From: Oscillospiraceae bacterium
Lineage (GTDB): Bacteria > Bacillota > Clostridia > Oscillospirales > Oscillospiraceae
Reading direction: 5' to 3'
DNA length: 34,609 nucleotides
NCBI GenBank assembly: GCA_017465625.1
Contig: JAFTVV010000023.1
Coordinates: 1-34,609, forward strand
Position numbers and translations under genes: made by a program. The notes beneath the pieces are model-generated. The model had not been told where the DNA came from, ran no database searches, and worked only from the letters and a program-made list of their open reading frames with translations. Of the stretch, positions 7,400 through 34,609 are shown piece after piece. Each line of letters opens with the position of its first letter. The first letter of the stretch is position 1.

Positions 7400-7415
7400 T
7401 ATTTTCAGAGAGCCA

Positions 7416-7679: not shown

Positions 7680-7722
7680 GGTCACACCTCCTATTCACTA
7701 AAATATGCTCATGCGTTTATCA

Positions 7723-7751
7723 ATTATAGCAAGGTGTACCCTTAAAATCAA
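7723..7751 (-). promoter_or_regulatory. rpsT promoter
   Basis: The minus strand reads TTGATT (7751-7746), exactly 17 bases, then a perfect TATAAT (7728-7723), about 44 bases before the rpsT start codon. Confidence 0.75.
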
Positions 7752-8108: not shown

Positions 8109-8362
8109 ACCTCTGTTTTACGCATTTCCAACTTTTACCCCTTTTTTCTTTGGAAAATTCCCTTTTATTTTTCTTTTATTCAGGAAAAAATTATGTTCTC
8201 TTTCCATCTAACTTTGGAAAAAAAGTTTCGTTTTTACCCCTTTGCCCCCACCTCTTTCAGGTGGATCTGTGGGTTTTCAATTTTATTTTTGTGAAAGTTT
8301 AACAAACTTTTTAAAGTAATCAACGCGCGGCTGCGCCGCAGCTTTAAAGCTTCCTGTAAACT

Positions 8363-8398
8363 GACGGAGGATCCCATTTCTGAGACCCTCCGTCTTTT
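8363..8398 (+). terminator. terminator-like hairpin facing the plus strand
   Basis: GACGGAGG (8363-8370) pairs with CCTCCGTC (8387-8394), followed by TTTT (8395-8398). The T-run is on the plus strand, yet no plus-strand gene lies upstream. It may end a transcript leaving the DnaA-box region, or it may act bidirectionally and help stop the minus-strand operon. Confidence 0.4.
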
Positions 8399-8527
8399 GT
8401 CAGGCTGTTATTTTGCAGCCCTATAATGTTTAGTTGCCGAAATAATCATCGCCCCACAGCCTTGCAATGACCTTGGGAACTGCGGTATGTGCCTAAGCGA
8501 TAAAGCGCACCGGAATATGCTCTGCTT

Positions 8528-10345: not shown

Positions 10346-10350
10346 ATTTT

Positions 10351-11667: not shown

Positions 11668-11679
11668 ATCATTTCCTCC

Positions 11680-18178: not shown

Positions 18179-19054
18179 TTATCCCTTGACGCCGCCCATG
18201 GTGATATTGCCCATCAGCTTTTCTTTGAAAGCGACGAACAACGCAAGGATCGGCAGCAGAATAATGATACAGCCTGCCATACGCAGGGGAACCGTGCTGA
18301 TGGTATTGCCGGTGTAATTGGATACATAATACAAGCCGAAGGACAGCGTGGGTCTGCTGGGCAAGTACAGCAGCGGCACCTGATAATCATTCCAGAACTC
18401 CACGAATTTGATCAAAAATATGGTAAAGAAGGTATTTTTGACCAACGGGAGCATAATTCTGGTCATAATGGTAAATTCATTGGCGCCGTCAATTTCGGCC
18501 GCCTCCGAATATTCCTTGGCCATACCTTTAAAGGCTGCATGGAACACCAAAAAATACATACCCAGGAAGTTTGCCTTTTGTATCCAGACGCCCAATAAAG
18601 TGTCGTAAATGCCCAAATTCTTCAGCATTGTAATCTCAGCAGGATAAGAGCCCACAATGGGGATGATCATGGTTACAATGACGGTTGCATAAATGATTCC
18701 ACTCATTTTCTTTTGCGGAAACTTTGCCGTTGCATAGGCAGTAACACAGGGAACAAATGTTGCTACAAATGCGCCGCCAACCACGTACAAGAGCGTATTG
18801 ACCAGCATATCGCCGATGCCCTGCTTCACCTGAATGCCATCGACAATGGCGTTCACTTCAAACTTATCCAAAACCGTGGAGAAATTCTTAAATATGAACT
18901 CCTTGGGCAGACCCAAAGGACTGTACAAAAAGTCATACTGCTCTTTCACCGAGGTCATGATTGCCCAAATCAAGGGCCAGATCAGGGAGATGGTATAGAT
19001 CAGCAAAACAAGGAATAGACTGACATTTAAAAGAGATAAATTTCGTTTTTTCAT
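18179..19054 (-). CDS. CUT1 sugar ABC transporter permease (MalG-type)
   Basis: An inner-membrane permease subunit of 291 residues with six predicted membrane helices, the first at about 13-33 (SLFLVLLIYTISLIWPLIWA). The EAA loop that contacts the ATPase is EYSEAAEIDGANEFTIMTRI followed by MLPLVKNTF. GAGAGGT about 8-10 bases upstream lies inside the end of the preceding permease gene, only 7 bases away, so the pair is translationally linked. It forms the importer with the other permease and the solute-binding lipoprotein. The substrate is inferred to be an oligosaccharide with arabinose and/or xylose. Confidence 0.93.
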   Translation of the reverse strand: MKKRNLSLLNVSLFLVLLIYTISLIWPLIWAIMTSVKEQYDFLYSPLGLPKEFIFKNFSTVLDKFEVNAIVDGIQVKQGIGDMLVNTLLYVVGGAFVATFVPCVTAYATAKFPQKKMSGIIYATVIVTMIIPIVGSYPAEITMLKNLGIYDTLLGVWIQKANFLGMYFLVFHAAFKGMAKEYSEAAEIDGANEFTIMTRIMLPLVKNTFFTIFLIKFVEFWNDYQVPLLYLPSRPTLSFGLYYVSNYTGNTISTVPLRMAGCIIILLPILALFVAFKEKLMGNITMGGVKG

Positions 19055-19061
19055 CTGTCAT

Positions 19062-20003
19062 CTACCTCTCACTGGGGTTTAATCTGTTCATAAAACGTCT
19101 GACGAGCAGGGTGATGGGAATGGTAATCATGGTCATCACAAGTCCAAATGCGGCAAAATACGGATAGTCTGCCAGCGATGCTGTAGTGATGCCCTGGTAC
19201 ATATAGTAGCCAATGGTCCATATATCGTAATTTGCTGCCTCTGCGCCATAAAAGCTGAACAAATTCATCTGATTGACAAAAATGGTTGCAGTACTGGAAA
19301 CCACAAACACCGCAATGGTAGGCATAATCATCGGAATATTGATCAGCAAAAATTCTTTGAGCGGTGTTACACCGTCTATTTTTGCCGCATCAATAATATC
19401 GGGCGAAATATCGCTCATCGCACTGCCGTAAATCAGTGTCTGTATTCCAAAGCCGGTCCAGATGGAGAAGAACAGAACCGTTATAAATTCCGTATCCGGA
19501 TTGGAAAGCAAGCCTTCGATCTCCTTGCCGAACAATTGCAGCACAAACGCAGGAATTGCATTTTCTACAAAGTATTTGTAGATGATGACCAGGATGATAC
19601 TGGAGATAATGAAGGGCAAAAACAGAATTACCTTAAAAAATTTACTCATAAAGTATTTTTTATACAGGTAATAAGAGAACAACAGTGCCAGCGTCAGACC
19701 TACAGCAAGGCCAACCAGATATGCAACAACGGAATTGCTAAATGCCTTCATTAAGTAATCTGCTTCTTGAAATTTCTGAAATACCGCTTTGAAATTGGTA
19801 AGAAGATGATCAAAGCCTACAAATTCCAGACCGTCGCCATACATATTGAATTTCTGAAATGCCAACGCAAAGGAATTCAGGTTGACACCAATATAAAAGA
19901 TGGCAAATTGCAGAAGGGGAAACGCCAGTACGCTCCAGTAAAAGATCGTTTTCCCTCTGTTTTTCTTCGACTTCATCAGGTTTTTCTTTCGTATTTGTGC
20001 CAT
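19062..20003 (-). CDS. CUT1 sugar ABC transporter permease (MalF/LplB-type)
   Basis: The partner permease, about 313 residues, with six membrane helices (for example FYWSVLAFPLLQFAIFYIG and AYLVGLAVGLTLALLFSYYL) and the EAA loop DIIDAAKIDGVTPLKEFLLI. The start is between ATG 20003 (MAQIRKK) and GTG 20009. GGGAGG is 11 bases from the ATG and 5 from the GTG; I list the ATG. It ends with TAG, showing that TAG is an ordinary stop in this locus. It lies 28 bases after the solute-binding protein gene. Confidence 0.92.
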   Translation of the reverse strand: MAQIRKKNLMKSKKNRGKTIFYWSVLAFPLLQFAIFYIGVNLNSFALAFQKFNMYGDGLEFVGFDHLLTNFKAVFQKFQEADYLMKAFSNSVVAYLVGLAVGLTLALLFSYYLYKKYFMSKFFKVILFLPFIISSIILVIIYKYFVENAIPAFVLQLFGKEIEGLLSNPDTEFITVLFFSIWTGFGIQTLIYGSAMSDISPDIIDAAKIDGVTPLKEFLLINIPMIMPTIAVFVVSSTATIFVNQMNLFSFYGAEAANYDIWTIGYYMYQGITTASLADYPYFAAFGLVMTMITIPITLLVRRFMNRLNPSER

Positions 20004-20031
20004 TGTCACAAACACCTCCCTGAAAGGTATT

Positions 20032-21705
20032 TTAGTTCAGATATTCTGCGTAACGGCTGCTCCAGGTTTCTTCATCCATTGCAGAAGCAAGGAAGTAGTC
20101 CTTTGCGGTGATGCCGGACTTGAATGCGGTATAGTAGTTGGTGGTGGTTCTTCCGTTGTAGGAAGCACCCCAGATCGGAGAGCCCTGATTGAACATAAAC
20201 GCATTCTGGTCATTCACATAGATGGGGTTATCGGAGTAGGGGTAAACCACATCAGAGTTCATCTTTGTATCCAGAACATCTCTCTGGAAGTAATTGTCGA
20301 TCAAAGCCAGCTGATCTTCCGGAATGGTATAATTGACGCACTTGGGCAGACCGGTGGTTACAGAGAATTCCACCAGAGATTCATCGGTATAGCAGAACTG
20401 CAGGAACTTCTTTGCCAGATCCAGCATCACAGGATCGTCTTTATACCTTGCATTGATAAAGGCAACGGAGTTCAGGGTTTCCAAAACGGTGTTCTTTCTG
20501 CCGTTTCCTTCTGTTACAGTGCCTTCATACTGAATGGGCAGGGGCATCCAGCCGAATCTTCTGCCTTCTGCCTGCTCCTTATAGGTGTTCACAGAACGCT
20601 TCAGGGCCTCGGTAGCCTCGTTGTACCAATAAGTACCTTCAATCATCATTGCGATGGGCTTTTCGCCGGCCTTCAGGTCGCTCAGGATGAACTTTTCCTG
20701 AGTATCCAGGTGAGAAGTGGACTTATCCAGCTTGGTGTGGTAGCTGTCGTTGGACATAATCTTTTCCATCAGCTCGAAAGCATAGTACCGACCGGCCTGC
20801 TGGGTCATCAGATATCCGTTTTTGTCGGTGATGGTCACCTGCTTTTCCACCGGGGTGTTGCCGTTAAAGGAATCAATGATGGTTGCCTGTGTATTGGTTG
20901 CAGCGCTGTCAAAGGTGACATTCAGCATAAATTCGTCTTTGCCTGTGAAAGACACCTGCAGACCTGCAAACAGGTCGTTTACGTAGTTTTCGGCAGAGCC
21001 CACCCATGTAAAGGGCACGACACCGTCAGCCACCATCTGATCCATCAGTGCATACAGCTCCTCGTAGGAGGAGGGCAGGCCGTCGTCCTTGGTGCCCTTG
21101 ACGCCGTCAGGACCAACCGTCTTTTCGTCTGCAACAGAGGTAAAGCTGCCGTCTGCGCTGAAATAGTAGCCGTACTCGTCAAACAGATCCACATTATAAA
21201 CCAAACCTGTGTAAACCTCGTAATGGGGAATGCAATAGTAGTTGCCGTTTACAGCAGTCAGTGCTTCCTTGTACTCCGGAGCCAGCTTATCCTCAATAGA
21301 GCCGGTCTCTGCGCCGTTGGAGGCATCAGACAGCGAACCGGTGACGATGTCGCTGATGTCCACGATCTGATTGGTGGCAATCAGTTCGTTGAAGTTGACG
21401 CTCTCGGTAAACCAGATTGCGTAGGGGGTCGTGGTCACGCCGTTCTTGCCATCCAGCTTGTCGTTGGTAATGTCAATCACAACGCCCATTTTGCCTTCTT
21501 CAAAGGAAACATTTGCGTACTTTTCTTCAAATCTCTTGGCTGCATTTTTAGCCCAATCGGAACCAATGCCGCCATCGTAACACAAAACAGACAAGTGGGT
21601 CTTGGTGGAGTCCACCTTGCTTCCACTGCCGCCGCCGCAGCCGGCGAACAAGGACACTACAGTAACAATTGTCAGAACCAGTGCTAAAATTGATCTTCTT
21701 TTCAT
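20032..21705 (-). CDS. sugar ABC transporter substrate-binding lipoprotein
   Basis: A 557-residue extracellular family 1 solute-binding protein. The signal peptide ends in the lipobox SLFAGC (C23), followed by a glycine-rich tether, so it is anchored outside the membrane. The mature part shows the two-lobed pattern of this class, including KNAAKRFEEKYANVSFEEGK near the N-terminus and LAKKFLQFCYTDESL near the C-terminus. It is larger than typical maltose-binding proteins (~400), as is common for oligosaccharide binders of gut Clostridia. AAAGGTGAAAG precedes the ATG. It follows the GH127 gene by 24 bases. Confidence 0.93.
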   Translation of the reverse strand: MKRRSILALVLTIVTVVSLFAGCGGGSGSKVDSTKTHLSVLCYDGGIGSDWAKNAAKRFEEKYANVSFEEGKMGVVIDITNDKLDGKNGVTTTPYAIWFTESVNFNELIATNQIVDISDIVTGSLSDASNGAETGSIEDKLAPEYKEALTAVNGNYYCIPHYEVYTGLVYNVDLFDEYGYYFSADGSFTSVADEKTVGPDGVKGTKDDGLPSSYEELYALMDQMVADGVVPFTWVGSAENYVNDLFAGLQVSFTGKDEFMLNVTFDSAATNTQATIIDSFNGNTPVEKQVTITDKNGYLMTQQAGRYYAFELMEKIMSNDSYHTKLDKSTSHLDTQEKFILSDLKAGEKPIAMMIEGTYWYNEATEALKRSVNTYKEQAEGRRFGWMPLPIQYEGTVTEGNGRKNTVLETLNSVAFINARYKDDPVMLDLAKKFLQFCYTDESLVEFSVTTGLPKCVNYTIPEDQLALIDNYFQRDVLDTKMNSDVVYPYSDNPIYVNDQNAFMFNQGSPIWGASYNGRTTTNYYTAFKSGITAKDYFLASAMDEETWSSRYAEYLN

Positions 21706-21729: not shown

Positions 21730-23487
21730 TTACATATTTAGCCAAACGGATATCACATTGTTTTCCTGCGTCCAGTTTTTACCGCAGGACTGATAGTCTG
21801 TCAGCAGCAGAGCGCCATCATCTGTCTGACATTCTATGCGGACAAGCTCGCCCTTTTCCGGCTTCAATACCTTGTAGGCCGGATTTTCGGAAACGTGTAC
21901 AGGCAGTGCAATGTCTTTTTCTGTTTTTGCGCTGTCTGCCGCCAAAACAAGTTCCCCGTAAGTAAAGGCTATTTTACCATTAATCTGCTGCGTTTTTAAG
22001 GTCCGTTTCCATTCAAAGACGATTTTTTCACCGGCCTTGTAATGCCCTGCAGCATCATAATACGGTGCATCGGAAACCGCGCTGCCGTTTACGAGCATCT
22101 CCTTGCACCAACCGGGCTTTCTGATCCGAATGTTCAAATCACACTCTGCCTGAACCGTAATACTGCAGCAGTCCTGCAGAGGAGCCTGATTTTCAAAGTC
22201 CAGCAAAACATCCTTGCCCTGTTGGTCTTTCACGGTAACCGTGCCGCTAAACTGCTGATTCACGTAGATGGAATTTTCATCACACACAACGGCCAGCAGC
22301 GGCATCAGGGATACACCGCAAGCACCGATGGCCACACAGCAGCCGCCGTATTCCCCGTTTTCAAAGGTCAAAAATCCGCCGATGCCCCGTCCGCGGCTGT
22401 TCATATACAGAGGCGAATAGCTATCGAAGGTCTTGGCCGGCAGATACACGCCGGACGTAAGCTCTCTTTGCATACATTGCTCTGTATTCAAACTTCCGTA
22501 CAACGCATTATAGCCTGCCTGCTCGATCCAATCGTAGTACTTTGCGTCTCCGGTAAGCAGATACATTCTGGCCATAATACGAATCCAGGTAACCGTTACG
22601 CAGGTCTCCTGCATAATCTGCTCGGAATACTCTGTCTGCATAACTGCAGAATTGTCGAACAGCTCGTGGGTACAGCCGGCACAGCCGATAATGGTAATAT
22701 CGCTTTGAGCAACCGCGTCCAGGAACCGCCGTGCTGCATCCAGATACTTTTGCTCTTTTGTCACCTCGTAATAGGCGATCAGGCCTTCGTAGAAGGACAT
22801 CATCTCATACGCTTTGGTAACGGGATACTGGTAGGGCATCAGACTGCCGTCCAGTGCCAGCTCAATCAGGTTGCAGTCGCTGCTGCCGCCGGTGGAAATG
22901 ATATACCTGGCAAAATCCAGATACTTTTCACAGCCGGTCATTTTGTAAAGTTCTACAGTGGGCTCTAAAATGGTGCAGGAGTTCACTGCGCCCCACCACA
23001 TGGAGGTGCTTGTGATCTCGATCTTCCCGGTACCGATCTGATCGGCAATGTAGTCCAGATGCTTGCAGCAGGCCGCCACAATCTTTTCCTTGAGACCCTC
23101 ATCCTTGCAGATGCGGTAATAATGCTGCAGACCGGTCAGCACATATTTTCTGCACCACATATCCCAGCCACAGAATTCATTGTCAACGGCGTATGTGGAA
23201 ATACGTCCGTATGCATCCTGGGTCTTGAGGATCTCTTCCGTTGCCCAGGTCAGGATATCGTACAATTCTTCATCCTGCGTATACATATAGGCATAGCAGG
23301 CGCCGCGCATCTGCTTTCCAAAGTATTCGCCTCTCCATCTTTCATCTGCTGAATCCACACGGGATGTAAATACTTCTATATAAAGCTTCCACGTTTTTCG
23401 GTCCTTTAATTGATGATCAACGACGAACCGAACGGCATCATCCATAATTCCTTTCGCCTGGATGGCGTTTTCACAAAAACGCTTCAT
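21730..23487 (-). CDS. GH127-family (DUF1680) beta-L-arabinofuranosidase
   Basis: A 585-residue cytoplasmic enzyme, first gene of the operon. GH127 enzymes remove beta-L-arabinofuranose from plant oligosaccharides using a zinc-bound cysteine nucleophile. The zinc ligand pattern is visible: E294 and C296 in QETCVT, and C383-C384 in YGGCCVAIG, matching the Glu-x-Cys plus Cys-Cys set described for the Bifidobacterium enzyme HypBA1. Flanking family blocks such as LTGDAKYYDWIEQAGYNALY agree. N-terminal (alpha/alpha) helices and a C-terminal beta-sandwich are expected. AAAAGGAG lies about 12 bases before the ATG, rather far. No signal peptide is present, so it would act on imported material. GH146 or another DUF1680 branch is the main alternative. 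Confidence 0.85.
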   Translation of the reverse strand: MKRFCENAIQAKGIMDDAVRFVVDHQLKDRKTWKLYIEVFTSRVDSADERWRGEYFGKQMRGACYAYMYTQDEELYDILTWATEEILKTQDAYGRISTYAVDNEFCGWDMWCRKYVLTGLQHYYRICKDEGLKEKIVAACCKHLDYIADQIGTGKIEITSTSMWWGAVNSCTILEPTVELYKMTGCEKYLDFARYIISTGGSSDCNLIELALDGSLMPYQYPVTKAYEMMSFYEGLIAYYEVTKEQKYLDAARRFLDAVAQSDITIIGCAGCTHELFDNSAVMQTEYSEQIMQETCVTVTWIRIMARMYLLTGDAKYYDWIEQAGYNALYGSLNTEQCMQRELTSGVYLPAKTFDSYSPLYMNSRGRGIGGFLTFENGEYGGCCVAIGACGVSLMPLLAVVCDENSIYVNQQFSGTVTVKDQQGKDVLLDFENQAPLQDCCSITVQAECDLNIRIRKPGWCKEMLVNGSAVSDAPYYDAAGHYKAGEKIVFEWKRTLKTQQINGKIAFTYGELVLAADSAKTEKDIALPVHVSENPAYKVLKPEKGELVRIECQTDDGALLLTDYQSCGKNWTQENNVISVWLNM

Positions 23488-23610: not shown

Positions 23611-24523
23611 CGGATTGGCAAATACGAAAAAATAGATAATAGAGAAGAGAGGTGAGAGAAGAGAAAATGTGTCGGCAGAGCCGACAATTTAAATATTTGC
23701 GGTAGGCGATAAAGGCTCCCCTGTAGGGGAGCTGGCATATTGCCGATTTTAGGCAATATGACTGAGGGGTTTACAGAGCTATAAGTCTATGCTTATCGGA
23801 AACTCTGCTTACCCCTCCGATCTCGCTACGCTCGCCCACCTCCCCTACAGGGGAGGCGTTGACAGTTTCCGTCATCTCACCAAATTTTCCACTTTCATCT
23901 TTCAACTACTTCTAATCCGCCCCTACGGTCAATATATCACGTTTTCATATTCAATCGTAGGGGGCGGTGCCCACATCGGCCCGCAAATCAAAATGAGGCT
24001 GCCGTTTCGCGGCAGCCTCATCGTTAGGGGAATGATTGATATTTGCGGATATTAAAAGGTAAACTCATAAGCGTCGTAGCAGTAGCCGCCGGTAACAACC
24101 AGCTTGCCATCCACGATGGATGCCGCACCGCCGCTGTTTGCCCAGGTAAAGCCTGTACCGTCTGTGCCTTTGGCTACAGTCGCATTGTTCAGATCGAAGC
24201 TCTGCTCCTGCACGCCTTCCAGACGCACATTGGAAATCTCAATAAAGTGTCTGTCGGGGGTGCCATCTTCAAGCTGGGTATTCCATTCAGGACCACCGAA
24301 AACTGCAAAGCCAAAGCCGGGCAATTGTCCGTCAACCAGGTAATTGTCTACCTTTACCTTGATCTTCGTGGTTGTGCCTGCGTTCACGGCAATCAAATCG
24401 GTATAGCTGTCAGCGACGCTGCCTTCATAGTTGTAGTTATACAACCGAATATTAACGGGATCCGTGGAGCCGCCCAAAGTGGTAATCAGCATATCCATAC
24501 AGATGTAGGTGTTGGTATCCTCC
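23611..24523. repeat. 0.9-kb direct repeat, copy A
   Basis: Nearly identical to 29284-30189 in the same orientation. It covers an intergenic palindromic repeat, the terminator, the stop codon and the entire last module of the 1689-aa protein. Similarity starts at CGGATTGGCAAATACG and ends at the TATCCTCC segment at 24517-24523. The main divergence is in the CCCCTACG arm (23932-23968) and in the terminator arms. Confidence 0.9.
23993..24021 (-). terminator. terminator of the 1689-aa protein gene
   Basis: A perfect 12-bp stem, 23993-24004 with 24010-24021, with a 5-base loop, about 30 bases after the stop codon. On the minus strand it is followed by TTTTGATTT. The corresponding hairpin at 29658-29687 has different upper-stem bases but keeps full pairing. 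Confidence 0.75.
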
Positions 24524-27500
24524 GGGGGCTCAGAGGGATCTTCCGACTCACCTGCCACGCTCAGGCTCAGCTTATGGCAATCGTAGCAATAGCCGTTTGT
24601 GATCTTCAGCACGTCGCCTGTAAAGGATGCCACACCGGAATTATTGGCTACAGTATAGCCGGTTTCACCCGTACCGCTGATACATACAGATTTGCTCAGA
24701 TCGTATGTTTTGGGCTCTGCGCCCTCCAGCTTCACACCGGAAATGGTAAGGGTGTGTCGGTCGGGGGTGTAGCCGTCGGGCAGCTTTGCATCCCAGGTCG
24801 GGCCACCGAAGATGCCGATGCCAATGCCGGTCAGCTTGCCGTCCACCAGATACTTTTCTGCGTCCAGCTTCACCGTTTGCAGTTCGCCTGCCTTGAAAAT
24901 GACCTGATCGTCATAAACCTCGTGGGGGTTACCCTCAAAGTTATAGGCATAGAAGCGCATTTCAACGTCATTTATCCAGTTGCCGCCCAGAGTGTCGATC
25001 TGCATATCCAGATAGATGTAGGACTTGCTCTTTACATTTGCACTGTTCAGGGCAATCTTATAACCGTCGTAACGGAAGCCGTTTTCGATCACGATCTGTC
25101 CGTCGATGATGGATGCCGCACCGGAGCCGTTGGCATCGGTAAAGCCGGTGCTCTCCTTGCCGGTGGCCACAGAAGCAGTATTCAAATCCAGCTGCTTCTC
25201 GTATGCACCCTTCAACCACGCATTGGAAATGATCAGCGTATGTCTGTCGGGTGTATAGCCGTCAGGCAGCTTGGTGTTCCACTCAGGACCGCCAAAGATC
25301 GCAATGCCCAGACCTTCGGGAATCACGCCGTCCACCATATACTTCTCCGCATTCAGTCTGACCGTGGTCTTTTTGCCTGCTGTTACGGTGACCCGGTCGG
25401 CATAACCCTCATTGATTCTGCCGGCATAGTCGTAGGGGTAGAAGCCAATCTCTACAGGATCGTTGGAATTGCCCAAAGTGGTCACCAGCACATCCAGAGA
25501 GATATACACGCCTTCACCGGTCGGTGCTTCCGGCTGTTTTGCATTGCCGGACGGGATGCTTTGTTCGTATGCTTCAGCCTCTTTATAATAGCTGTAGGCT
25601 GCCGCCATCAAGCCCTTGGTAACCGCATCGTCGGTGCTGTTATAAGTACGGACAAAATACCAGATGGGCGCATACTGCGCAGAGAATGTGGTACTGCCGT
25701 CGGTGACATTTACCGTGATGACATTGCTCATATCCTGGGGATTGATGCCGGGTGTTTCAATGTAATACAGGCCATCCTTTGCCACAGGCTCATATTCTGT
25801 GCCATTGATCGTAAAGGTATAGCCATCTGTTGCACCATCGGCTGCAAAATAGAAGCGCACAGCGGCCTTGGACAGGAAGCGCACAGAAGTGCCGTAGAAG
25901 CGAATACCGCTTACGCCGCCATCAACCGCTACTTCAGGGGACTGGGCAGGAACGGCATTGGCAGGCGTAATGACATACCCCTGATTTGCCAAATTGCTTG
26001 CATCGTAATCAAAGTACTTCTGCGCCCAGGCACCCATATTCAAAAGCTCCAGGCTCAGATCCTTGGTTGCCTGATCGAAATTGCCCTCGATCAACGCCAC
26101 CAGATAGTCACGAATACTGTACTGTCTTCTGATAATCTCACCGATGATATTGTGCTTCAGGGTCAGATCCACGTGCTCCGTCATCTGCGCCACGGCCATT
26201 TCGGTTTGCATGTGGTACAGGCCATTTTCGTTTTTGGTCAGCTCACTGAGCTTGAATTTGTTGGTTGCACCGTCGTACGTCAGCGATCCGGAAATGGAGC
26301 CGGCATAGCCTTCGGGCACATTGCCCCACAGGTGCAGAATCAGGTCAGAGCCCAAGGACATAGACTGACTGAGGTAATGGACTTCTTCCGGCCGGGCCGT
26401 TACTTCATAAGTGGCGAAGGAATAGTTGCCGTCACCGTCAAATGCCATATACCGGACGGTGTAAACACCCTCCATGCTTGCCACAAAAGTACCGTTTGTA
26501 ACATCTATTTTCACGCCCTCAGGGTTATACACATAGGAGGCGACCGTGCAGTTGGATGTCACATTATCCTGCACCTGTGCGGTGGCAACGGTCACTGTTT
26601 CACCGGGTTTCACAGTTTTTGTATGCTGCGACAGGGTGATGGTCGGACCTTCCCCGTCTGTGACGGTCAGGGTATAGATGTGCCGTCCTGTGTTCTTTGC
26701 ACCGTCCGTGGTTGTGTAGAAAATCGTATACGTGCCCAGCTTATCCATGGTAAAGGCCGTATCCTTGGAGGCATCCTGTGTTCCGTTCAGCACGATGCCG
26801 TTTTCATCGGTTACAACTGTGCCGTCCGGATCCGTCACTTTTAAGGTTACTGTAGCAATCGGATTCAATACATCGTATACAAACGCGCCCTTCAGCTGCA
26901 GTCTTTCGCCTTTTTCGACAGAGCCGGACAGGGCATCGGCAATAAACTGAGGTGCAACACTATCCTTTGTGGCATTGCTCAGCTTCTGACCGTTCAGTGT
27001 CTGCATCACAAACTGAGAAGAGCCGGTCACACCGGAAAGCTCCACCGTGAAACGTGCAATCGAGTCTGTGAAGCCTGTAAATTCACTGCCGTCCAGGAAA
27101 TTGTTTACTTTGATTTTCTTGCCGGTCTCCGGCGTTACAATGCCCGTATCACCGGAAAATGCCAAAGTAAATGCACTGTCAAAAGCAGAGGTCAGCGTGA
27201 CCGTGCCTCCGTCATTGACCGAGAACATCACACCGCTATCTGTGTTGGTATAGGACAGCTTTACCTGTTTTCCGCTGATCACGTCTGTCAGATAGACAGA
27301 AATTTTGTTATAGGCCTTTTGGCTTCCCACCTGGAAACCGAAGGTCATTTGCTTCACCTGCACAAAATTTACAAAGTTCAGTTTTGTGTCTTTTTTGAAG
27401 GAATAGGTGATTTTGGAACTGGAAGTAGTGCCGGTAGCCGCACCTGTGGGGTCCACAAAGTACTTGTTCAGTTGCACCGTGTTGATTATACTTTTTACCT

Positions 27501-29121
27501 TTACAACGGTAGCGTTATAGGTCTTCTCACAGCTCTTTCCGTCTACAGTTAAACGGTAAGTCACCTTGACTGCGCCTGCAGTTGAAGGAGTATACTGCCT
27601 GTTTGTAACCGCTTTTTCGCTGCCGCCGCTTTCCGTAACATACACATCCATGGCCTTCAAAACGCCTTTTCCGGAGGAAAAGTCATAGCCATACAGTACA
27701 GGCAGATTGTAGGTCGCGCCCTGTACAAAATAATCTGGCACAGCCACCGTGTCATACACCTGGGGCTGGGAGGTCCGATTGGCTTTTACCGTAAAAGTTT
27801 TCACCACTGTGGAAATATAGTCCTGCACCGTAACGGTAATTTCCCAGTCGCCACCCTCCATCGGAATAAAGGAACAGGTTTGGGGATCAATTTCCAGCAC
27901 GTCACCGTTTGCCGCATTTTTTGCCGTTATACGGTAGGATACATTACCGGAAGCGCCTATGCAGTCCACACCGGAGAACAGCTGAACAAGCGTGCCTGTA
28001 TCCGTTTCGGAAACAACATTCTGCAATGTAACTTGCAGACCGCTGCCGACTACCGCATTGACGCGCAAGGATGCTGTGGAAGCATTGCCGGAAAAGTCTC
28101 GCGCTGTATACTCTATGATATACGCACCTGCTTCGGAGGGTGTGAACTTTCCGTCCACTACAGCAACTTCCTGCTTGCTTCCGGTACTGCTCTCATAATA
28201 CACAGCAGAGGTTTCTTTCGCATTTTTGTCACAGCCATCAAGAACCGTTGCCGGGAAAATGGGGTAGGGCTTTCCCACCAGTGCCGTGGGAAGGGCATCC
28301 TGCGCATAGCCCGTATTCACAGAAATAATGGGCGCGCTTTGATCCCGATCCGAGAGGTTGCTGTTTCCGTTGATGGCGGAAATGGTGAAATTACAGGTTG
28401 CAGCCTGATAATTGGATGCAAAAACAGAGAATTTTGCCTGCCCTGTGGTAAATCCCTCCCACAATTCAGAGCCGAAATAGTCATCCTCATCCAGATCGAC
28501 CACAAGCTGCTTGGCGTGGGTATAGGTTTCACGGTCTGCGTAGATTGCCTTTTCTGCATAGTCGAAATACAGTGTTAAATGGGTATCTTCGCTGCTTTTT
28601 GGCAGGCCGGCCAAGGAATAATCCACTGCTGCACCGTAACCGTAAACATCATTGATATGGGGCTTGCTGTTATTGGGATCTCCTGCATTTTCAATACCAA
28701 TCTGAGGCTGATCAGCCGCACCGGCAGTCACATAGATATGACCGCTTGCCCAGGTATCGCCAAGGCTGGTCAGGGTGATGGTGATATAATTATTTTCGTC
28801 ATAAATATCCGTAAACCGCAGATAGACCTTCGGTGCATCCGCCGTACCGATCATGGACGGATTGAACTGCATATTCAGCAGCGGCACATTCTTGGAAGCC
28901 GCTGAAAGGTTCAGGATCTCATTATAGGTAAACACATCCTCTTGCCCCAGAGAAACCTGAATCGTCCCATCCTTCAGCGATGCAGACGAGCCTGCACTGT
29001 TTACCTGTAAAACGGAATTTGCCGAAGATGCCGCCGACACGCTGATACCAAGACAGCCTGCAACCAACGTAATGCAGATGCAAATCAGCAATACCCGAAA
29101 TAAGACCTTATTTTTATACAT
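24052..29121 (-). CDS. giant secreted multi-module protein (1689 aa)
   Basis: Function unknown; probably extracellular glycan binding. Modules: signal peptide 1-~31; residues ~35-910 paralogous to the 1000-aa operon protein, with Ig-like stretches YIIEYTARDFSGNAS (334-348), YTIFYTTTDGAKN (798-810) and YTVRYMAFDGDGN (887-899); residues ~914-1186 matching the N-terminal domain of the next gene (SIRDYLVALI, LELLNMGAWAQKYF, GIRFYGTSVRFLS, APIWYFVRTY); then three tandem modules at 1206-1368, 1369-1539 and 1540-1689. Each module has a Y/MVDG strand, IFGGPxW, PDRH, a strand ending in LEG, and a YDxxK end. The fusion point at ~910 is where the 1000-aa paralogue stops. ATG 29121 (MYKNKVLF) is preceded by AAAGGG at about 9 bases; a longer frame to 29184 has no ribosome binding site. 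No sorting signal or S-layer domain ends it. Confidence 0.85.
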   Translation of the reverse strand: MYKNKVLFRVLLICICITLVAGCLGISVSAASSANSVLQVNSAGSSASLKDGTIQVSLGQEDVFTYNEILNLSAASKNVPLLNMQFNPSMIGTADAPKVYLRFTDIYDENNYITITLTSLGDTWASGHIYVTAGAADQPQIGIENAGDPNNSKPHINDVYGYGAAVDYSLAGLPKSSEDTHLTLYFDYAEKAIYADRETYTHAKQLVVDLDEDDYFGSELWEGFTTGQAKFSVFASNYQAATCNFTISAINGNSNLSDRDQSAPIISVNTGYAQDALPTALVGKPYPIFPATVLDGCDKNAKETSAVYYESSTGSKQEVAVVDGKFTPSEAGAYIIEYTARDFSGNASTASLRVNAVVGSGLQVTLQNVVSETDTGTLVQLFSGVDCIGASGNVSYRITAKNAANGDVLEIDPQTCSFIPMEGGDWEITVTVQDYISTVVKTFTVKANRTSQPQVYDTVAVPDYFVQGATYNLPVLYGYDFSSGKGVLKAMDVYVTESGGSEKAVTNRQYTPSTAGAVKVTYRLTVDGKSCEKTYNATVVKVKSIINTVQLNKYFVDPTGAATGTTSSSKITYSFKKDTKLNFVNFVQVKQMTFGFQVGSQKAYNKISVYLTDVISGKQVKLSYTNTDSGVMFSVNDGGTVTLTSAFDSAFTLAFSGDTGIVTPETGKKIKVNNFLDGSEFTGFTDSIARFTVELSGVTGSSQFVMQTLNGQKLSNATKDSVAPQFIADALSGSVEKGERLQLKGAFVYDVLNPIATVTLKVTDPDGTVVTDENGIVLNGTQDASKDTAFTMDKLGTYTIFYTTTDGAKNTGRHIYTLTVTDGEGPTITLSQHTKTVKPGETVTVATAQVQDNVTSNCTVASYVYNPEGVKIDVTNGTFVASMEGVYTVRYMAFDGDGNYSFATYEVTARPEEVHYLSQSMSLGSDLILHLWGNVPEGYAGSISGSLTYDGATNKFKLSELTKNENGLYHMQTEMAVAQMTEHVDLTLKHNIIGEIIRRQYSIRDYLVALIEGNFDQATKDLSLELLNMGAWAQKYFDYDASNLANQGYVITPANAVPAQSPEVAVDGGVSGIRFYGTSVRFLSKAAVRFYFAADGATDGYTFTINGTEYEPVAKDGLYYIETPGINPQDMSNVITVNVTDGSTTFSAQYAPIWYFVRTYNSTDDAVTKGLMAAAYSYYKEAEAYEQSIPSGNAKQPEAPTGEGVYISLDVLVTTLGNSNDPVEIGFYPYDYAGRINEGYADRVTVTAGKKTTVRLNAEKYMVDGVIPEGLGIAIFGGPEWNTKLPDGYTPDRHTLIISNAWLKGAYEKQLDLNTASVATGKESTGFTDANGSGAASIIDGQIVIENGFRYDGYKIALNSANVKSKSYIYLDMQIDTLGGNWINDVEMRFYAYNFEGNPHEVYDDQVIFKAGELQTVKLDAEKYLVDGKLTGIGIGIFGGPTWDAKLPDGYTPDRHTLTISGVKLEGAEPKTYDLSKSVCISGTGETGYTVANNSGVASFTGDVLKITNGYCYDCHKLSLSVAGESEDPSEPPEDTNTYICMDMLITTLGGSTDPVNIRLYNYNYEGSVADSYTDLIAVNAGTTTKIKVKVDNYLVDGQLPGFGFAVFGGPEWNTQLEDGTPDRHFIEISNVRLEGVQEQSFDLNNATVAKGTDGTGFTWANSGGAASIVDGKLVVTGGYCYDAYEFTF
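24055..25506 (-). repeat. three tandem CBM-like modules
   Basis: Coding repeats of about 150-170 codons: 25506-25018, 25017-24505 and 24504-24055. The middle one is nearly identical to the last module of the gene at 33743-34609, including its three cysteines. The last is nearly identical to the last module of the 1282-aa protein. The modules are thus more alike between genes than within this gene, a sign of shuffling. Confidence 0.85.
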
Positions 29122-29246
29122 ATACGTGCACCCTTTCCCCTTGAGAAAGCTTGATTTTTGATTCTTTGCAGAGTTAAAAGCCATTTTTCTACTTTTAGTA
29201 ATACCATATTATCATAAAATTGTATATAAGCATTGAATTTAATACC

Positions 29247-29273
29247 TAATATCTTGTATGAAAGTTTCAATTT
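29247..29273 (-). promoter_or_regulatory. shared upstream motif, copy B
   Basis: Counterpart of 23575-23601, here about 125-150 bases before the start codon of the 1689-aa gene. On the minus strand it reads TTGAAACTTTCATACAAGAT followed by ATTA. Conservation continues directly into the 0.9-kb repeat, so regulation cannot be told apart from duplication without more genomes. Confidence 0.3.
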
Positions 29274-29283
29274 ATAGAGAAGA

Positions 29284-30189
29284 CGGATTGGCAAATACGA
29301 AAAAAATAGATAATAGAGAAGAGAGAAGAAAAAATGTGTCGGCAGAGCCGACAATTTAAATATTTGCGGTAGGCGATAAAGGCTCCCCTGTAGGGGAGCT
29401 GGCATATTGCCGATTTTAGGCAATATGACTGAGGGGTTTACAGAGCCATAAGTTTATGCTTATCGGAAACTCTGCTTACCCCTCCGATCTCGCTACGCTC
29501 GCCCACCTCCCCTACAGGGGAGGCGTTGACGGTTTCCGTCATCTTACCAAATTTTCCACTTTCATCTTTCAACTACTTCTAATCTGCCCCTACGAGTTCT
29601 GTCGCACGTTTTGTTCTGCATCGTAGGGGGCGGCGCCTCGACGGCCCGCAAATCAAAATGAGGCTGCTGTTTTCACAGCAGCCTCATCGTTAGGGGAATG
29701 ATTGATATTTGCGGATATTAAAAGGTAAACTCATAAGCGTCGTAGCAGTAGCCGCCGGTAACAACCAGCTTGCCATCCGCGATGGATGCCGTACCGCCGC
29801 TGTTTGCCCAGGTAAAGCCTGTACCGTTTGTGCCATTGGCCACAGTCGCATTGTTCAGATCGAAGCTCTGCTCCTGCACACCTTCCAGACGCACATTGGA
29901 AATCTCAATAAAGTGTCTGTCATATGTGCCATCTTCAAGCTGGGTATTCCATTCAGGACCACCGAAAACTGCAAAGCCAAAGCCGGGCAATTGTCCGTCA
30001 ACCAGATAGTTGTCTACCTTTACCTTGATCTTTGTGGTTGTGCCTGCGTTCACGGCAATCAAATCGGTATAGCCGTCACCGACGCTGCCTTCATAGTTGT
30101 AGTTATACAACCGGATATTAACGGGATCCGTGGAGCCGCCCAGAGTGGTAAACTTCAGATCCATACAGATGTAGGTGTTGGTATCCTCC
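29284..30189. repeat. 0.9-kb direct repeat, copy B
   Basis: Partner of 23611-24523, about 5.67 kb away in direct orientation. It contains the downstream intergenic DNA, terminator and last module of the 1282-aa protein gene. Recombination between the two copies would remove the whole 1689-aa gene except its last module and leave the flanking genes intact. Confidence 0.9.
29658..29687 (-). terminator. terminator of the 1282-aa protein gene
   Basis: A perfect 13-bp stem, 29658-29670 with 29675-29687, with a TTTC loop. On the minus strand it is followed by TTTTGATTT. It differs from the copy at 23993-24021 by compensating changes in the upper stem. Confidence 0.75.
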
Positions 30190-33100
30190 ACCAGAGTGAT
30201 CTTGTGGCCGTCATATTGGAAGCCATTGGTGATCACGATGGACTGGCCAACGGTTGCTGCACCGGAGCCGTTGGCGTTGGTGAAGCCGGTGCCGTTCTGG
30301 CCGCCTGCCCAGGTAGACTGGCTCAGATCGAAGGCCATAGACTGTACGCCTTCCAAGCGGGCATTGGAAATGGTAATGGTGTGTCTGTCGGGAGTGTAGC
30401 CGTCGGGCAGCTTTGCATCCCAGGCAGGACCGCCGAAGATGGCAAAGCCGATGCCGGACACCTTGCCGTCCACCATATACTTTTCTGCATTCAGCTTGAT
30501 GGCAGCAGTAGTGCCTGCAGTAATGGTCAGCTTATCTGTCCAGTTGTTGATGTCGCCTTCAAAATCGCTGGGGAAGAAGCCAATCTCAACAGGACTGGTA
30601 GAGCCGCCCAGTGTGGTGAACAACAGATCCATACACAGGAATGTATCAGGTTTTTTCATCAGAGAAATCTTGTGACCGTCGTAGCGGAAGCCGTCGGAGA
30701 TCACGATGGTCTCGCCAATAGTCGCCTTACCGGAGCCGTTGGCATTGGTGAAGCCGGTACCGCTGTTGCCGCCTGCCCAAGCAGACTGGGTCAGATCGAA
30801 CGTCACAGACTGTGCGCCTTCCAAGCGGGCATTGGAGATGGTAATAGTATGTCTGTCGGGTGTATAGCCGTCTTCCAGCTTGGCATCCCATTCAGGACCG
30901 CCGAAAATGGCAAAGCCGATACCGGACACCTTGCCGTCCACCATATACTTTTCTGCATTCAGCTTGATGGCAGCAGTAGTGCCTGCAGTAATGGTCAGCT
31001 TATCTGTCCAGTTGTTGATGTCGCCTTCAAAATTGCTGGGGAAGAAGCCGATGTCAACAGGAGCTGTAGAGCCTGACAGTGTGGTGAACAACAGATCCAT
31101 TGCAATGTAGGTGTTGGTATCCTCCACCAGGGTGATCTTGTGACCGTCGTACTGGAAGCCGTTGCTAATAACGATGGTGCTGCCAATCTCTGCCACGCCG
31201 CTACCATTAGCCCAGGAATAGCCTGCATTGGCTGCGCTTGCCCAGGTGGACTTGCTCAAATCAAAGGCCTTGGACTGGTCGCCCTCCAGACGGGCATCGG
31301 AAATGGTAACGGTGTGTCTGTCAGGAGTATAGCCGTCTTCCAGCTTGGCATCCCAGGCGGGGCCGCCCATAATAGCAAAGCCAATACCGGTCAGTTCACC
31401 GTCTACCAGATAATTATCCAAATTCAGCTTTACGGTGGTGGCAGTACCAGCGGTGATATTAACCGAATCGGTACCGCTGTCACCGACACTGCCTGTATAG
31501 TTGTAGGGGAAGAAACGAACTTCGATCGGATCGGTGGAATTACCCAATGTGGTAATCAGCATATCCAGGCAGAGGTAGGTGTCGGGTTCTTCAACAGGAG
31601 GCTCGGGCTCGGTGGGTTCGGGCTTGGTGGGCTCGGGCTCGGTGGGCTCGGGCTCGGTGGGCTCGGGCTCGGTGGGCTCTGTTTCATCAGGAATGGTTTC
31701 ATCCACAAAGAGGAGCTTGTAGCCGTCAGTGAAGAAGCCGTTGGAAATGGTCACTACGCCATCGGTTACCACTGCGGTACCGCCAGCGTTTGCATTGGTA
31801 TAACCGGTGCCGTTCTGACCGGCCTTCAAAGAAGCTTTGCTCAGATCAATGCGCTGATCCAGCTCACCCTTCAGGCGGATAGCGGAAATAGTAATGTTGT
31901 GTCTGTCGGGAGTTTGGCCGTCTTCCAGCTTGGCATCCCAGGTCGGGCCGCCCAAAACAGCAAGACCGATACCGGGGAACTCGCCGTCTACCAGATATTT
32001 GCTCAGATCCAGCTTTACAGTATAGGTGTTTCCGGTGGGTACATCAATTCTGTCAACATGATTGTTGATGTCGCCTTCAAAGTCGTAACCATAGAAGCCG
32101 ATACCGATGGTTTCAAAGTTACCGCTCAAGGTGCTCAGCTGCATATCCAGCTCAATGTATGTAGATACCTCGTTGAAGGTGATCTTGTAGCCGTCAGTGA
32201 AGAAGCCGTTGGCAAATGTAATTACACCATCTGTCAAAGTTGCAGTACCACCGGCATTTGCATTGGTATAACCGGTGCCGTCCTGACCGCTTGCGATTGT
32301 AGCATAACTCAAATCAATGGGACGATCCTCCGGGCCTTCCAGGCGCATTTCGGTGATCTTGATGGTGTGTCTGTCGGGAGTAGTGCCATCTTCCAGTTTG
32401 GCATCCCAGGCAGGACCGCCGAGAACCGTAATGCCGATACCCTTGAACTCGCCGTCTACCAGGTACTTGCCCTGATCCAGCTTCACGGTATAGCTCATAC
32501 CTGTGGGCACTTCAATTTTGTCGGTATAGTTATTGATATCGCCTTCGAAATCCAGAGGATAGAAGCCAAGACCGATGGATTCATGGTTGCCGCTCAGGGT
32601 GCTGATCTCCACATCCATGCAGATCTGGGTCTTGTAGGATTCAGCAGTCTTGTAGTAGCTGTAAGCAGCTTCCATCAGACCCTTGCTGTAATCATTGTCA
32701 ATATTGTGATAGGCACGAATAAAGTACCAGATGGGTGCATAACCAACAGACAGTGTGTTGCTGCCGTCGGTAACATTCACGGTCATCACATCGCTCATAT
32801 TCTGAGGATTGATGCCGGGGGTCTCGATGTAGTACAGGCCATCCTTTTCAACAGGATCTACCTTCGCACCGTTCACGGTGAAGGTATAGCCGTTTACGCC
32901 GCTGTCTGCCTTGAAATAGAAGCGCATAGCGGTCTGAGAGAGGAAGCGAACGGAAGTGCCGTAGAAACGGATGCCTTCCACTTGACCCTCGGTGATTGCA
33001 GAGGGGATTTCATCCGGAACAGAATAGCCGGGCTGAATATTGAAGCCTGCGTTGGCCAGATTGCTGATATTGTGATTAAAATACAGCTGTGCCCACGCAC

Positions 33101-33566
33101 CCATATTCAGCAGTTCCAGACACAGATCCTTGGTGGTCTGGCTGTAATCGCCATTGATGATGGCTACCAGGTAATCACGAATGGTGTAGTGCTCGTCAAA
33201 GACCTCCTGCTTGATGCCCAGAACCTTGGCTTCTACCAATGCGTGGATATCATCCGTCATCTCTGCGACGGCCATCTCCACCGGCATATCATACATGCCG
33301 TTTTCGTCGGGGGTCATATCATCCAACGTGTAGGTTGCGGTCTTGCCTGCGTAGGAGATTGTGCCCACTGCGTCCTTGGCATAGTTTGCAGCGCTGTCGG
33401 GGATGCTGGCCCGCAGGTGCAGTACCAGGTCTTCACCCAAGGAAAGCTGCTGGGTAATGTAGTCCTCGCCCTGCAGCAGAGCTGCCTGTGCACCCATCGG
33501 AATGACACTCAGGAGTAAACACAGTGTCACGATCAATGCCATGGCTTTTTTTATAGTGCGATGCAT
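29718..33566 (-). CDS. giant secreted protein with six tandem CBM-like modules
   Basis: A 1282-residue secreted protein, probably a surface or extracellular glycan binder. Signal peptide ~1-28 (ALIVTLCLLLSVIPMGAQA). Residues ~35-312 form a domain I have seen, without a settled name, in secreted proteins of Ruminococcaceae: QLSLGEDLVLHL, TIRDYLVAII, LELLNMGAWAQLYF, IRFYGTSVRFLS. Six modules follow at 315-470, 471-622, 665-820, 821-976, 977-1132 and 1133-1282. An acidic proline-rich linker (623-664) splits them two and four. Each module has strands resembling a carbohydrate-binding jelly roll (VKLxxxKYxVDG, GIGxAIxGGPxWDAKL, PDRHTITIS, RLEG). GAGGGA lies about 6 bases before the ATG. No enzymatic domain or wall anchor is seen. 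Confidence 0.88.
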   Translation of the reverse strand: MHRTIKKAMALIVTLCLLLSVIPMGAQAALLQGEDYITQQLSLGEDLVLHLRASIPDSAANYAKDAVGTISYAGKTATYTLDDMTPDENGMYDMPVEMAVAEMTDDIHALVEAKVLGIKQEVFDEHYTIRDYLVAIINGDYSQTTKDLCLELLNMGAWAQLYFNHNISNLANAGFNIQPGYSVPDEIPSAITEGQVEGIRFYGTSVRFLSQTAMRFYFKADSGVNGYTFTVNGAKVDPVEKDGLYYIETPGINPQNMSDVMTVNVTDGSNTLSVGYAPIWYFIRAYHNIDNDYSKGLMEAAYSYYKTAESYKTQICMDVEISTLSGNHESIGLGFYPLDFEGDINNYTDKIEVPTGMSYTVKLDQGKYLVDGEFKGIGITVLGGPAWDAKLEDGTTPDRHTIKITEMRLEGPEDRPIDLSYATIASGQDGTGYTNANAGGTATLTDGVITFANGFFTDGYKITFNEVSTYIELDMQLSTLSGNFETIGIGFYGYDFEGDINNHVDRIDVPTGNTYTVKLDLSKYLVDGEFPGIGLAVLGGPTWDAKLEDGQTPDRHNITISAIRLKGELDQRIDLSKASLKAGQNGTGYTNANAGGTAVVTDGVVTISNGFFTDGYKLLFVDETIPDETEPTEPEPTEPEPTEPEPTKPEPTEPEPPVEEPDTYLCLDMLITTLGNSTDPIEVRFFPYNYTGSVGDSGTDSVNITAGTATTVKLNLDNYLVDGELTGIGFAIMGGPAWDAKLEDGYTPDRHTVTISDARLEGDQSKAFDLSKSTWASAANAGYSWANGSGVAEIGSTIVISNGFQYDGHKITLVEDTNTYIAMDLLFTTLSGSTAPVDIGFFPSNFEGDINNWTDKLTITAGTTAAIKLNAEKYMVDGKVSGIGFAIFGGPEWDAKLEDGYTPDRHTITISNARLEGAQSVTFDLTQSAWAGGNSGTGFTNANGSGKATIGETIVISDGFRYDGHKISLMKKPDTFLCMDLLFTTLGGSTSPVEIGFFPSDFEGDINNWTDKLTITAGTTAAIKLNAEKYMVDGKVSGIGFAIFGGPAWDAKLPDGYTPDRHTITISNARLEGVQSMAFDLSQSTWAGGQNGTGFTNANGSGAATVGQSIVITNGFQYDGHKITLVEDTNTYICMDLKFTTLGGSTDPVNIRLYNYNYEGSVGDGYTDLIAVNAGTTTKIKVKVDNYLVDGQLPGFGFAVFGGPEWNTQLEDGTYDRHFIEISNVRLEGVQEQSFDLNNATVANGTNGTGFTWANSGGTASIADGKLVVTGGYCYDAYEFTF
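29721..32624 (-). repeat. six tandem ~155-codon modules
   Basis: Module limits: 32624-32157, 32156-31701, 31574-31107, 31106-30639, 30638-30171 and 30170-29721. Modules 4 and 5 are the most alike, with about 100 identical bases in a row (about 30928-31030 against 30460-30562). Module 6 belongs to the 0.9-kb repeat shared with the neighbouring gene. Confidence 0.9.
31575..31700 (-). repeat. Glu-Pro-Thr linker encoded by a 15-base repeat
   Basis: Encodes about five copies of EPTEP, one with Lys, between modules 2 and 3. At the DNA level a 15-base unit (GGTGGGCTCGGGCTC on the plus strand) recurs over about 31602-31680. Such linkers are typical flexible spacers in secreted Gram-positive enzymes and binders, and the tract could change length by slippage. 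Confidence 0.85.
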
Positions 33567-33600
33567 AATTTTCCCTCATTTCTTGTTTGATTATTTTTTG

Positions 33601-33630
33601 GAACAGGCGGCTTTTTCAAGACGCCTGTTC
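33601..33630. other. hairpin in the leader of the 1282-aa gene
   Basis: GAACAGGCG (33601-33609) pairs with CGCCTGTTC (33622-33630) in the 176-base gap between the two large genes. On the minus strand it is followed by CAAAAAATAATC, so there is no T-run. It lies about 35 bases before the start codon and may be a leader structure or a poor terminator for the upstream gene. Confidence 0.4.
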
Positions 33631-33742
33631 AAACGAACAGGATTACGGGTTTCGCGATTTTCTATCTTAGAAAACTTTTTGCTATAATTATGACTCTTTT
33701 GTGTGGGAAATTGCTGAAATATTGCGGTTTGCTGACAGGTGC

Positions 33743-34609
33743 TTATTTTTCACTCAGGGAGATCTTGTGGCAGTCGTAGCAGAAGCCGTTTGTGATCTTC
33801 AGCACACTGCCTACGAAGGATGCCACACCGGAATTATTGGCTACAGTATAGCCGGTTGCACCCGTGCCGCTGATACATACAGATTTGCTCAGATCGTATG
33901 TTTTGGGCTCTGCGCCCTCCAGCTTCACACCGGAAATGGTAAGGGTGTGGCGGTCGGGGGTGTAGCCGTCGGGCAGCTTGGTATTCCACTCAGGGCCGCC
34001 GAAGATGCCGATGCCAATGCCGGTCAGCTTGCCGTCCACCAGATACTTTTCTGCGTCCAGCTTCACCGTTTGCAGTTCGCCTGCCTTGAAAATGACCTTA
34101 TCGTCATAAACTTCGTGGGGATTACCCTCAAAGCTATAGGCATAGAAGCGCATCTCAACATCTCTTGTCCAGTTGCCGCCCAGGGTGTCGATCTGCATAT
34201 CCAATACCACATAGGACTTTTCGTCTGTTTCACCGGACTCCGGCACTTCCGTCAGGGAAATCTTGTGGCAGTCGTAACAGAAGCCGTTTGTGATCTTCAG
34301 TACACCGTCTGCAAAGGATGCCACGCCGGAACCGTTGGCTACCGTATAGCCGGTTGCACCCGTACCGCTGATACATACAGATTTGCTCAGATCGTATGTC
34401 TTGGGCTCTGCGCCCTCCAGCTTCACATTGGAAATGGTAAGGGTGTGGCGGTCGGGGGTGTAGCCGTCGGGCAGCTTTGCATCCCAGGTCGGGCCGCCGA
34501 AGATGCCGATGCCAATGCCGGTCAGCTTGCCGTCCACCAGATACTTTTCTGCGTCCAGCTTCACCGTTTGCAGTTCGCCTGCCTTGAAAATGACCTTATC
34601 GTCATAAAC
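33743..34609 (-). CDS. third multi-module secreted protein, 5' end outside window
   Basis: The reading frame is open to the last base (34609), so only the C-terminal 288 residues are seen: most of one CBM-like module and one complete module of the family found in the two downstream genes, joined by a short acidic spacer (ESGETDEKSY). Both visible modules carry KSVCISGTG and FCYDCHK, giving three cysteines each, a variant shared only with the middle module of the 1689-aa protein. An apparent GTG start at 34564 is just an internal valine codon. The protein presumably has a signal peptide and more modules upstream. No C-terminal anchor is visible (it ends ISLSEK). Confidence 0.85.
   Translation of the reverse strand, partial: VYDDKVIFKAGELQTVKLDAEKYLVDGKLTGIGIGIFGGPTWDAKLPDGYTPDRHTLTISNVKLEGAEPKTYDLSKSVCISGTGATGYTVANGSGVASFADGVLKITNGFCYDCHKISLTEVPESGETDEKSYVVLDMQIDTLGGNWTRDVEMRFYAYSFEGNPHEVYDDKVIFKAGELQTVKLDAEKYLVDGKLTGIGIGIFGGPEWNTKLPDGYTPDRHTLTISGVKLEGAEPKTYDLSKSVCISGTGATGYTVANNSGVASFVGSVLKITNGFCYDCHKISLSEK

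Follow-up and report, generated by a model that had tools for sequence, protein, structure and literature searches.

Tandem arrays of an unnamed module in secreted proteins without recognisable catalytic domains beside a predicted polysaccharide-utilisation locus of an Oscillospiraceae bacterium

Introduction

What is the role of giant secreted proteins that carry many copies of one unnamed module and are encoded next to genes for sugar uptake? This question is raised by a contig of an Oscillospiraceae bacterium (assembly GCA_017465625.1, contig JAFTVV010000023.1, here C25). The whole stretch analysed, 34,609 nucleotides up to the point where the contig ends, is referred to as the window. Its array-bearing frames are P0001, P0002 and P0003. 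We consider it probable that the window holds most of a Gram-positive polysaccharide-utilisation locus (gpPUL) whose array proteins are non-catalytic, multivalent glycan binders. According to excerpts of PMC5320581, gpPULs combine glycosidase genes with an ATP-binding cassette (ABC) importer and an AraC-type regulator, and some include xylose isomerase; for the Roseburia group, the same excerpts attribute polysaccharide binding to carbohydrate-binding modules (CBMs) within glycoside hydrolase (GH) enzymes.

Module arrays without a recognisable enzyme

Profile searches located three copies of the module in P0001 (span 25512-24055), six in P0002 (29721-32633) and two in P0003 (33755-34609), all in minus-strand frames, so that the count of six, three and at least two copies in the initial annotation was exact. 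The module is about 153 residues long, and the first P0003 copy is cut by the contig end. With a profile built including these copies, the ten whole copies scored at least 228.5 bits and the cut copy 199.6 bits; a search with a single copy is the fairer yardstick, and its weakest other match in the window had E 1.5e-42. In the shuffle control for the profile in A-B order (the order of the two halves described below), a related domain was shuffled 4000 times, and the highest score was 9.3 bits. The frames behave as coding sequence: between P0001 and its relative in locus L034 of another genome, differences at codon positions 1, 2 and 3 number 387, 273 and 704 over 1688 aligned codons.

In the source genome as a whole, the single-copy search gave 16 matches, 11 on C25 and five (four whole, one cut) on a second contig, C39, which has 9310 bases and ends inside a module. 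The C39 frame has, by eye, a lipoprotein-like start, followed by Big_2 matches and then the modules; the domain before its array shows no relation to the module. The last 117 bases of C39 are identical to the first 117 of the C25 reverse complement, but the last 100 of these recur once more in the window, which weakens the join. P0003 is a C-terminal fragment, probably the end of the C39 array lipoprotein. Thus, the three adjacent frames initially described as giant secreted proteins are in place, but the third is incomplete, and its remainder probably lies on C39.

Across 24 whole modules from four genomes, a Gly-Gly-Pro-x-Trp motif, an Asp-Gly, an Arg, an Asn and a late Asp are each present in 24/24. 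The motifs by which the module was first described do occur, but more loosely than claimed: among the ten whole window modules, KYxVDG is matched exactly in seven, IFGGPxW in five, DRH in all ten, RLEG in six and YDGHK in three. A crude propensity scoring (no control) gave 58 strand and 12 helix positions of 155, and the module is probably beta-rich.

In agreement with the initial annotation, neither profile searches nor PDB sequence searches named a family. Pfam returned no credible family for P0001, P0002, P0003, the C39 protein or their relatives, and NCBIfam, searched with the window proteins, likewise returned none. Nor did Pfam give any credible match to a catalytic domain for P0001, P0002, P0003 or the C39 protein, which supports the proposal that they have no catalytic domain of their own; the modules are encoded beside a GH127 gene and are not fused to an enzyme. 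Pfam, NCBIfam and hhalign against CBM_4_9 did not connect the module with any named CBM family, and no CBM_11 match in 60 genomes exceeded the cut-off. A description of the module was not found in the literature listings and excerpts consulted on permuted CBMs, Gram-positive CBM arrays, the genome RGIG3076, DUF4838 or cohesin with GH127.

Two published systems offer parallels. In excerpts of PMC10318527, BpGH16MLG of Blautia producta, another secreted protein of a Firmicute, carries a tandem series of four homologous CBM4 modules. However, these are fused to GH16 and assigned to CBM4, whereas the window arrays are enzyme-free and have no detectable relation to CBM_4_9. CBM112, as presented in excerpts of PMC13357471, is a family recognised from an unnamed domain and includes a module inserted in another domain, comparable to locus L036 (below). 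Mannan binding was measured for CBM112, and its likeness to the window module is one of description.

The same proteins could also be read as carrying structural spacers, or cell-wall or S-layer-like blocks, that lift other domains and bind no ligand. Such a role would suit the long arrays, the linkers of Pro, Glu and Thr and the Ig-like repeats in the same proteins, and the arrays of P0001 and P0002 are C-terminal with no further domain identified. Yet P0001, P0002 and the L034 protein have nothing after the array to present, the conservation of Trp, Arg and Asp in 24/24 modules exceeds what a spacer needs, and the arrays stay with a sugar locus across two orders. We therefore regard spacers as improbable.

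Sugar locus around the arrays

The locus genes follow the arrays on the same strand (Table 1). From the GH127 gene onward they are separated by 5-81 bases, except for 312 before the xylose isomerase frame, whereas the gaps around the array genes are 176-564 bases. The GH127-like protein retains Glu-Thr-Cys and Cys-Cys stretches when aligned with the solved six-hairpin glycosidase 6ex6; we take these stretches to be catalytic. In addition, C39 carries GH38 (E 2e-50) and an AraC-type gene beside the array lipoprotein.

All three elements of a gpPUL have counterparts here. Polysaccharide-degrading enzymes are represented by the predicted GH127 (E 6e-31) and the C39 GH38, and linked carbohydrate transport by two permeases and a lipoprotein that weakly matches binding proteins; no ATPase was present among the window frames scanned. 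The linked regulator is the AraC-type gene of C39, by way of the putative C39-C25 join. The locus thus resembles the gpPULs of PMC5320581 in its glycosidase genes, ABC importer, AraC-type regulator and xylose isomerase, and differs in that no enzyme domain can be recognised in its array proteins. Since the excerpts of that paper put gpPUL binding on enzyme-borne CBMs, the window system is a gpPUL variant with an unnamed module.

The gene neighbourhood is conserved. Each of the ten window genes compared (P0001 through the gene at 8528) has a counterpart in RGIG3076, with unchanged order and 69-94% identity. In a Tyzzerella metagenome-assembled genome (MAG), the GH127, binding protein, two permease, P0006-like and DUF4838 genes are found in the same order (58-73% identity) and an array lipoprotein (47% identical to the C39 protein over 1215 positions) and an AraC gene (74%) adjoin, while relatives of XylA (66%), XylB (40%) and the 8528 gene (44%) are further off. 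Because NCBI puts Tyzzerella in Lachnospirales, the association of the arrays with a sugar locus extends over two orders. Both of these relatives also have GH2 genes in their loci.

The initial annotation placed the arrays next to a pentose-glycan importer operon. A sugar importer is indeed there, together with a GH127-like enzyme, xylulokinase and xylose isomerase, and is kept in two other module genomes; the xylose genes suggest that xylose is released. However, GH38 on C39 and GH2 in the relatives' loci suggest a complex glycan and not a simple pentosan.

The xylose isomerase frame (10351-11700) contains one in-frame stop and is listed only as its C-terminal 338-residue frame; the stop is a sequencing error or marks a decaying copy. 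The two other loci each encode a relative of the DUF4838 lipoprotein, with identities of 60% and 78%. A separate glycogen/maltodextrin set lies at 174-6567, with a phosphorylase, a 4-alpha-glucanotransferase, a ROK protein and a phosphoglucose isomerase match.

Table 1. Array proteins, modules and neighbouring genes of the window
Feature	Position	Strand	Evidence or remark
Distant GH127-like protein	8528..10345	-	PF07944 E 0.0045, under cut-off
Xylose isomerase (XylA), C-terminal part of stop-interrupted frame	10351..11367	-	profile
Xylulokinase (XylB)	11680..13158	-	TIGR01312
DUF4838 lipoprotein	13240..15138	-	PF16126 E 3e-31
P0006, without modules	15149..18151	-	55% identical to first 930 residues of P0001
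Importer permease	18179..19054	-	PF00528
Importer permease	19062..20015	-	PF00528
Lipoprotein, putative carbohydrate-binding protein of importer	20032..21705	-	TIGR03850 E 6e-14, under its cut-off
GH127-like enzyme	21730..23487	-	PF07944 E 6e-31
Second copy of duplicated segment	23575..24523	-	93.4% over 955 positions
P0001, secreted protein: P0006-like N-terminal 930 residues, ~277-residue domain, three modules	24052..29184	-	1710 aa
Module P0001 m3	24055..24513	-	profile
Module P0001 m2	24562..25026	-	profile; 92.4% identical to P0003 m2 over 458 positions
Module P0001 m1	25048..25512	-	profile
Unnamed ~277-residue domain of P0001	25564..26388	-	profile (copy included in profile)
Duplicated segment	29247..30189	-	93.4% over 955 positions
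P0002, secreted protein: ~277-residue domain and six modules	29718..33566	-	1282 aa
Module P0002 m6	29721..30179	-	profile; DNA 95.4% identical to P0001 m3
Module P0002 m5	30192..30647	-	profile; DNA 86.8% identical to m4
Module P0002 m4	30660..31115	-	profile
Module P0002 m3, preceded by Pro/Glu/Thr linker	31128..31583	-	profile
Module P0002 m2	31707..32165	-	profile
Module P0002 m1	32175..32633	-	profile
Unnamed ~277-residue domain of P0002	32634..33464	-	profile (copy included in profile)
P0003, C-terminal array-protein fragment, runs off contig end	33743..34609	-	288 aa
Module P0003 m2	33755..34219	-	251.7 bits
Module P0003 m1, cut copy	34253..34609	-	199.6 bits

Recent expansion of the modules

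The DNA duplications in the window show that the module has expanded recently, and the description of the family as expanding is borne out by these near-identical copies. Two segments (30189-29247 and 24523-23575) are 93.4% identical over 955 positions, and each spans the last module of P0002 or P0001 together with DNA 3' of the gene. The second module of P0003 matches that of P0001 at 92.4% over 458 positions, and the DNA of P0002 modules m4 and m5 is 86.8% identical, compared with a median of 62.3% when 15 copies are compared pairwise. A tree of 26 modules joins P0001 m1 to the first module of L034 (100/99) and groups the pair of P0001 m3 and P0002 m6 (100/100) with the fourth module of L034 (96/90), but places P0001 m2 with the P0003 modules (100/98). 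These groupings indicate that module positions are a mixture of old and overwritten ones.

P0001 and P0002 are each followed by a terminator-like hairpin (24022-23992 and 29688-29657, respectively); the two hairpins are nearly identical and lie inside the duplicated segment.

Distribution and the weighing of glycan binding

Within its own genus, the module was found in 3/136 genomes, the source genome included. Outside the genus, one Lachnospiraceae genome, the Tyzzerella MAG, has a related locus. Other draws, in which the centre genome is counted, gave 2/60 relatives, 1/400 genomes in the family and 1/391 in the class, and draws with the profile in B-A order, counted in the same way, gave 1/398 in the phylum and 1/250 in the family of the Tyzzerella genome. 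A scan of GTDB contigs, which relies on exact short motifs and may miss divergent relatives, returned four loci (L034-L037). One of these, L037 from Adlercreutzia, is a chance match of 39 residues inside a helicase-like frame; the rest come from two Oscillospiraceae MAGs and the Tyzzerella MAG, from goat and water deer. Some of the genomes sampled appear to be the same, as judged by contig numbers and coordinates: G029, G1221 and L034 form one set, and G1527, G1223 and L036 another. No relative of the module was found in viral contigs, phages or plasmids.

Several observations weigh against glycan binding in a sugar locus. Searches of Pfam came back empty and PDB sequence searches were at chance level, the best E values being 0.81 for the A-B profile, 0.077 for the B-A profile and 0.87 for a single B-A domain. 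CBM_4_9 (PF02018) gave no Pfam match, and hhalign against 14 CBM_4_9 sequences gave a probability of 0.4% in either half order, although the alignments were shallow, there was no positive control and a distant relation would be missed. In addition, P0002 sums to 32.1 bits for Qn_am_d_aII (PF14930; cut-off 27). This family, the quinohemoprotein amine dehydrogenase alpha domain II, is also represented by the PDB match 1jju (E 0.077) around the GGPxW strand of the module; however, that match spans only about 60 residues, and no single stretch of P0002 passes the cut-off. The genome RGIG8730 carries two modules in a protein whose 16-kb surroundings, by eye, are no sugar locus. Finally, the module occurs in so few genomes that a lineage-specific adhesin is possible.

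More generally, the arrays could be adhesins for a ligand on host mucosa, food protein or partner cells, and not for an imported glycan. Patchy occurrence in ruminant gut bacteria would be in line with this, as would the fast turnover of modules, which is common in adhesins. On the other hand, the importer, GH127-like gene and AraC gene are linked to the arrays in two other genomes, and adhesion to such a ligand seems to us unlikely. On balance, we find it rather probable that the modules bind glycan, although we infer fold, binding and ligand alike from sequence.

Two halves and three proposed registers

The module can be divided into two halves: A extends from YICMD as far as RLEG, and B begins at DLS and takes in YDGHK and the final strand. 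The spacing from B to the next A varies from 3 to 62 residues over the 20/20 junctions, with some linkers rich in Pro, Glu and Thr, whereas the alignment columns between A and B are fixed (G100 in 24/24, D107 in 23/24 and L108 in 24/24). Among array ends uncut by a contig end, 5/6 (P0001, P0002, P0003, L034 and L035) finish with a whole B and 1/6 (L036) inside B. Taken together, the variable B-A linkers, the fixed A-B columns and the arrays ending with a whole B indicate that the array unit is A-B.

The opposite order was found beside the Tyzzerella array, in a 465-residue protein with a cohesin match (L035, 9173-10567) whose C-terminus holds B and then A of one module relative. A B-A profile built without this protein matched it at 31.6 bits (E 3e-8) in one stretch over profile positions 16-140, while the best of 4000 shuffles reached 9.8 bits; the A-B profile needed two pieces (22.0 bits), and the identity is 18%. 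A strong match of L035 to a B-A profile that contained its own sequence was set aside. This protein bears on a further alternative, namely that the arrays are cellulosome-like scaffolds for protein-protein assembly on which the modules dock other proteins of the locus. A cohesin-domain protein bearing a module relative next to an array would favour such docking. However, cohesin is known from that one genome only, and the seven window proteins contain no cohesin or dockerin at E up to 1, which makes scaffolds very unlikely in our judgement.

A third set of ends is seen in RGIG8730, where a protein of 1782 residues (L036, frame 5853-11198) is 70% identical over aligned residues to a module-free source-genome protein of 1392 residues. 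It contains a 319-residue insert, equal to two repeat lengths, inside a repeated domain, together with a second copy of the host domain. By eye, the ends of the insert fall at matching points inside B, and the A starts are 158 residues apart. Chimeric assembly may account for this insert.

The A-B arrays, the B-A cohesin protein and the cut inside B suggest natural circular permutation. A closed beta-sandwich whose termini lie close together would permit three such sets of ends, as far as MAG sequences can indicate. The engineered circular permutant CP90 of RoCBM21, as reported in excerpts of PMC3511584, is a CBM that works with its halves in reversed order; that permutant is man-made, whereas the window family seems to have both orders in nature.

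A possible display domain of the giant proteins

In P0001 and P0002 the arrays are preceded by a region that is found again in L034 and L036. Its unnamed domain of about 277 residues has 20 matches in the source genome, 37 in the congener G029 and 20 in G016, and was found in 9/60 relatives and in 6/177 genomes of the class, the source genome included. Its position was assessed in the proteins of 16 of the 18 source-genome matches outside the window (L094-L107 among the loci). In seven of these 16 proteins it starts less than 70 residues from the frame start of a longer protein, in six it ends at most six residues from the C-terminus and in two it is internal; the 320-residue L100 protein has little beyond it. 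Its partners include Endonuclease I (two proteins), GH43, Exo_endo_phos, a metallophosphatase with tyrosine phosphatase, DUF4838 and a weak Hint match, and the domain itself has no PDB match. It may serve in surface retention or assembly, and the presence of this domain in P0001 and P0002, along with the C39 lipoprotein, points to a predicted location of the arrays at the cell surface.

We propose, only tentatively, a broader reading in which the module is a new glycan-binding family that occurs in three registers, was circularly permuted via tandem duplication and is held in arrays displayed by the ~277-residue domain of about 20 giant proteins.

Conclusions

In the mechanism that we propose, module arrays on the lipoprotein and the secreted proteins would concentrate a plant-type glycan at the cell, and the enzymes of the locus would trim the glycan so held. 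The binding protein and permeases of the ABC importer would then take up the pieces, part of which would feed the xylose route. The arrays themselves would grow through unequal exchange and segment duplication, processes that would also spread module types between proteins.

Because one locus contains copies that are nearly identical, the gain and exchange of modules and their possible circular permutation can be tested, and the recurring ~277-residue domain offers a handle on how giant proteins are displayed. If the modules bind glycans, they would constitute an unnamed binding family, and polysaccharides would be held on enzyme-free surface proteins of Gram-positive gut bacteria.

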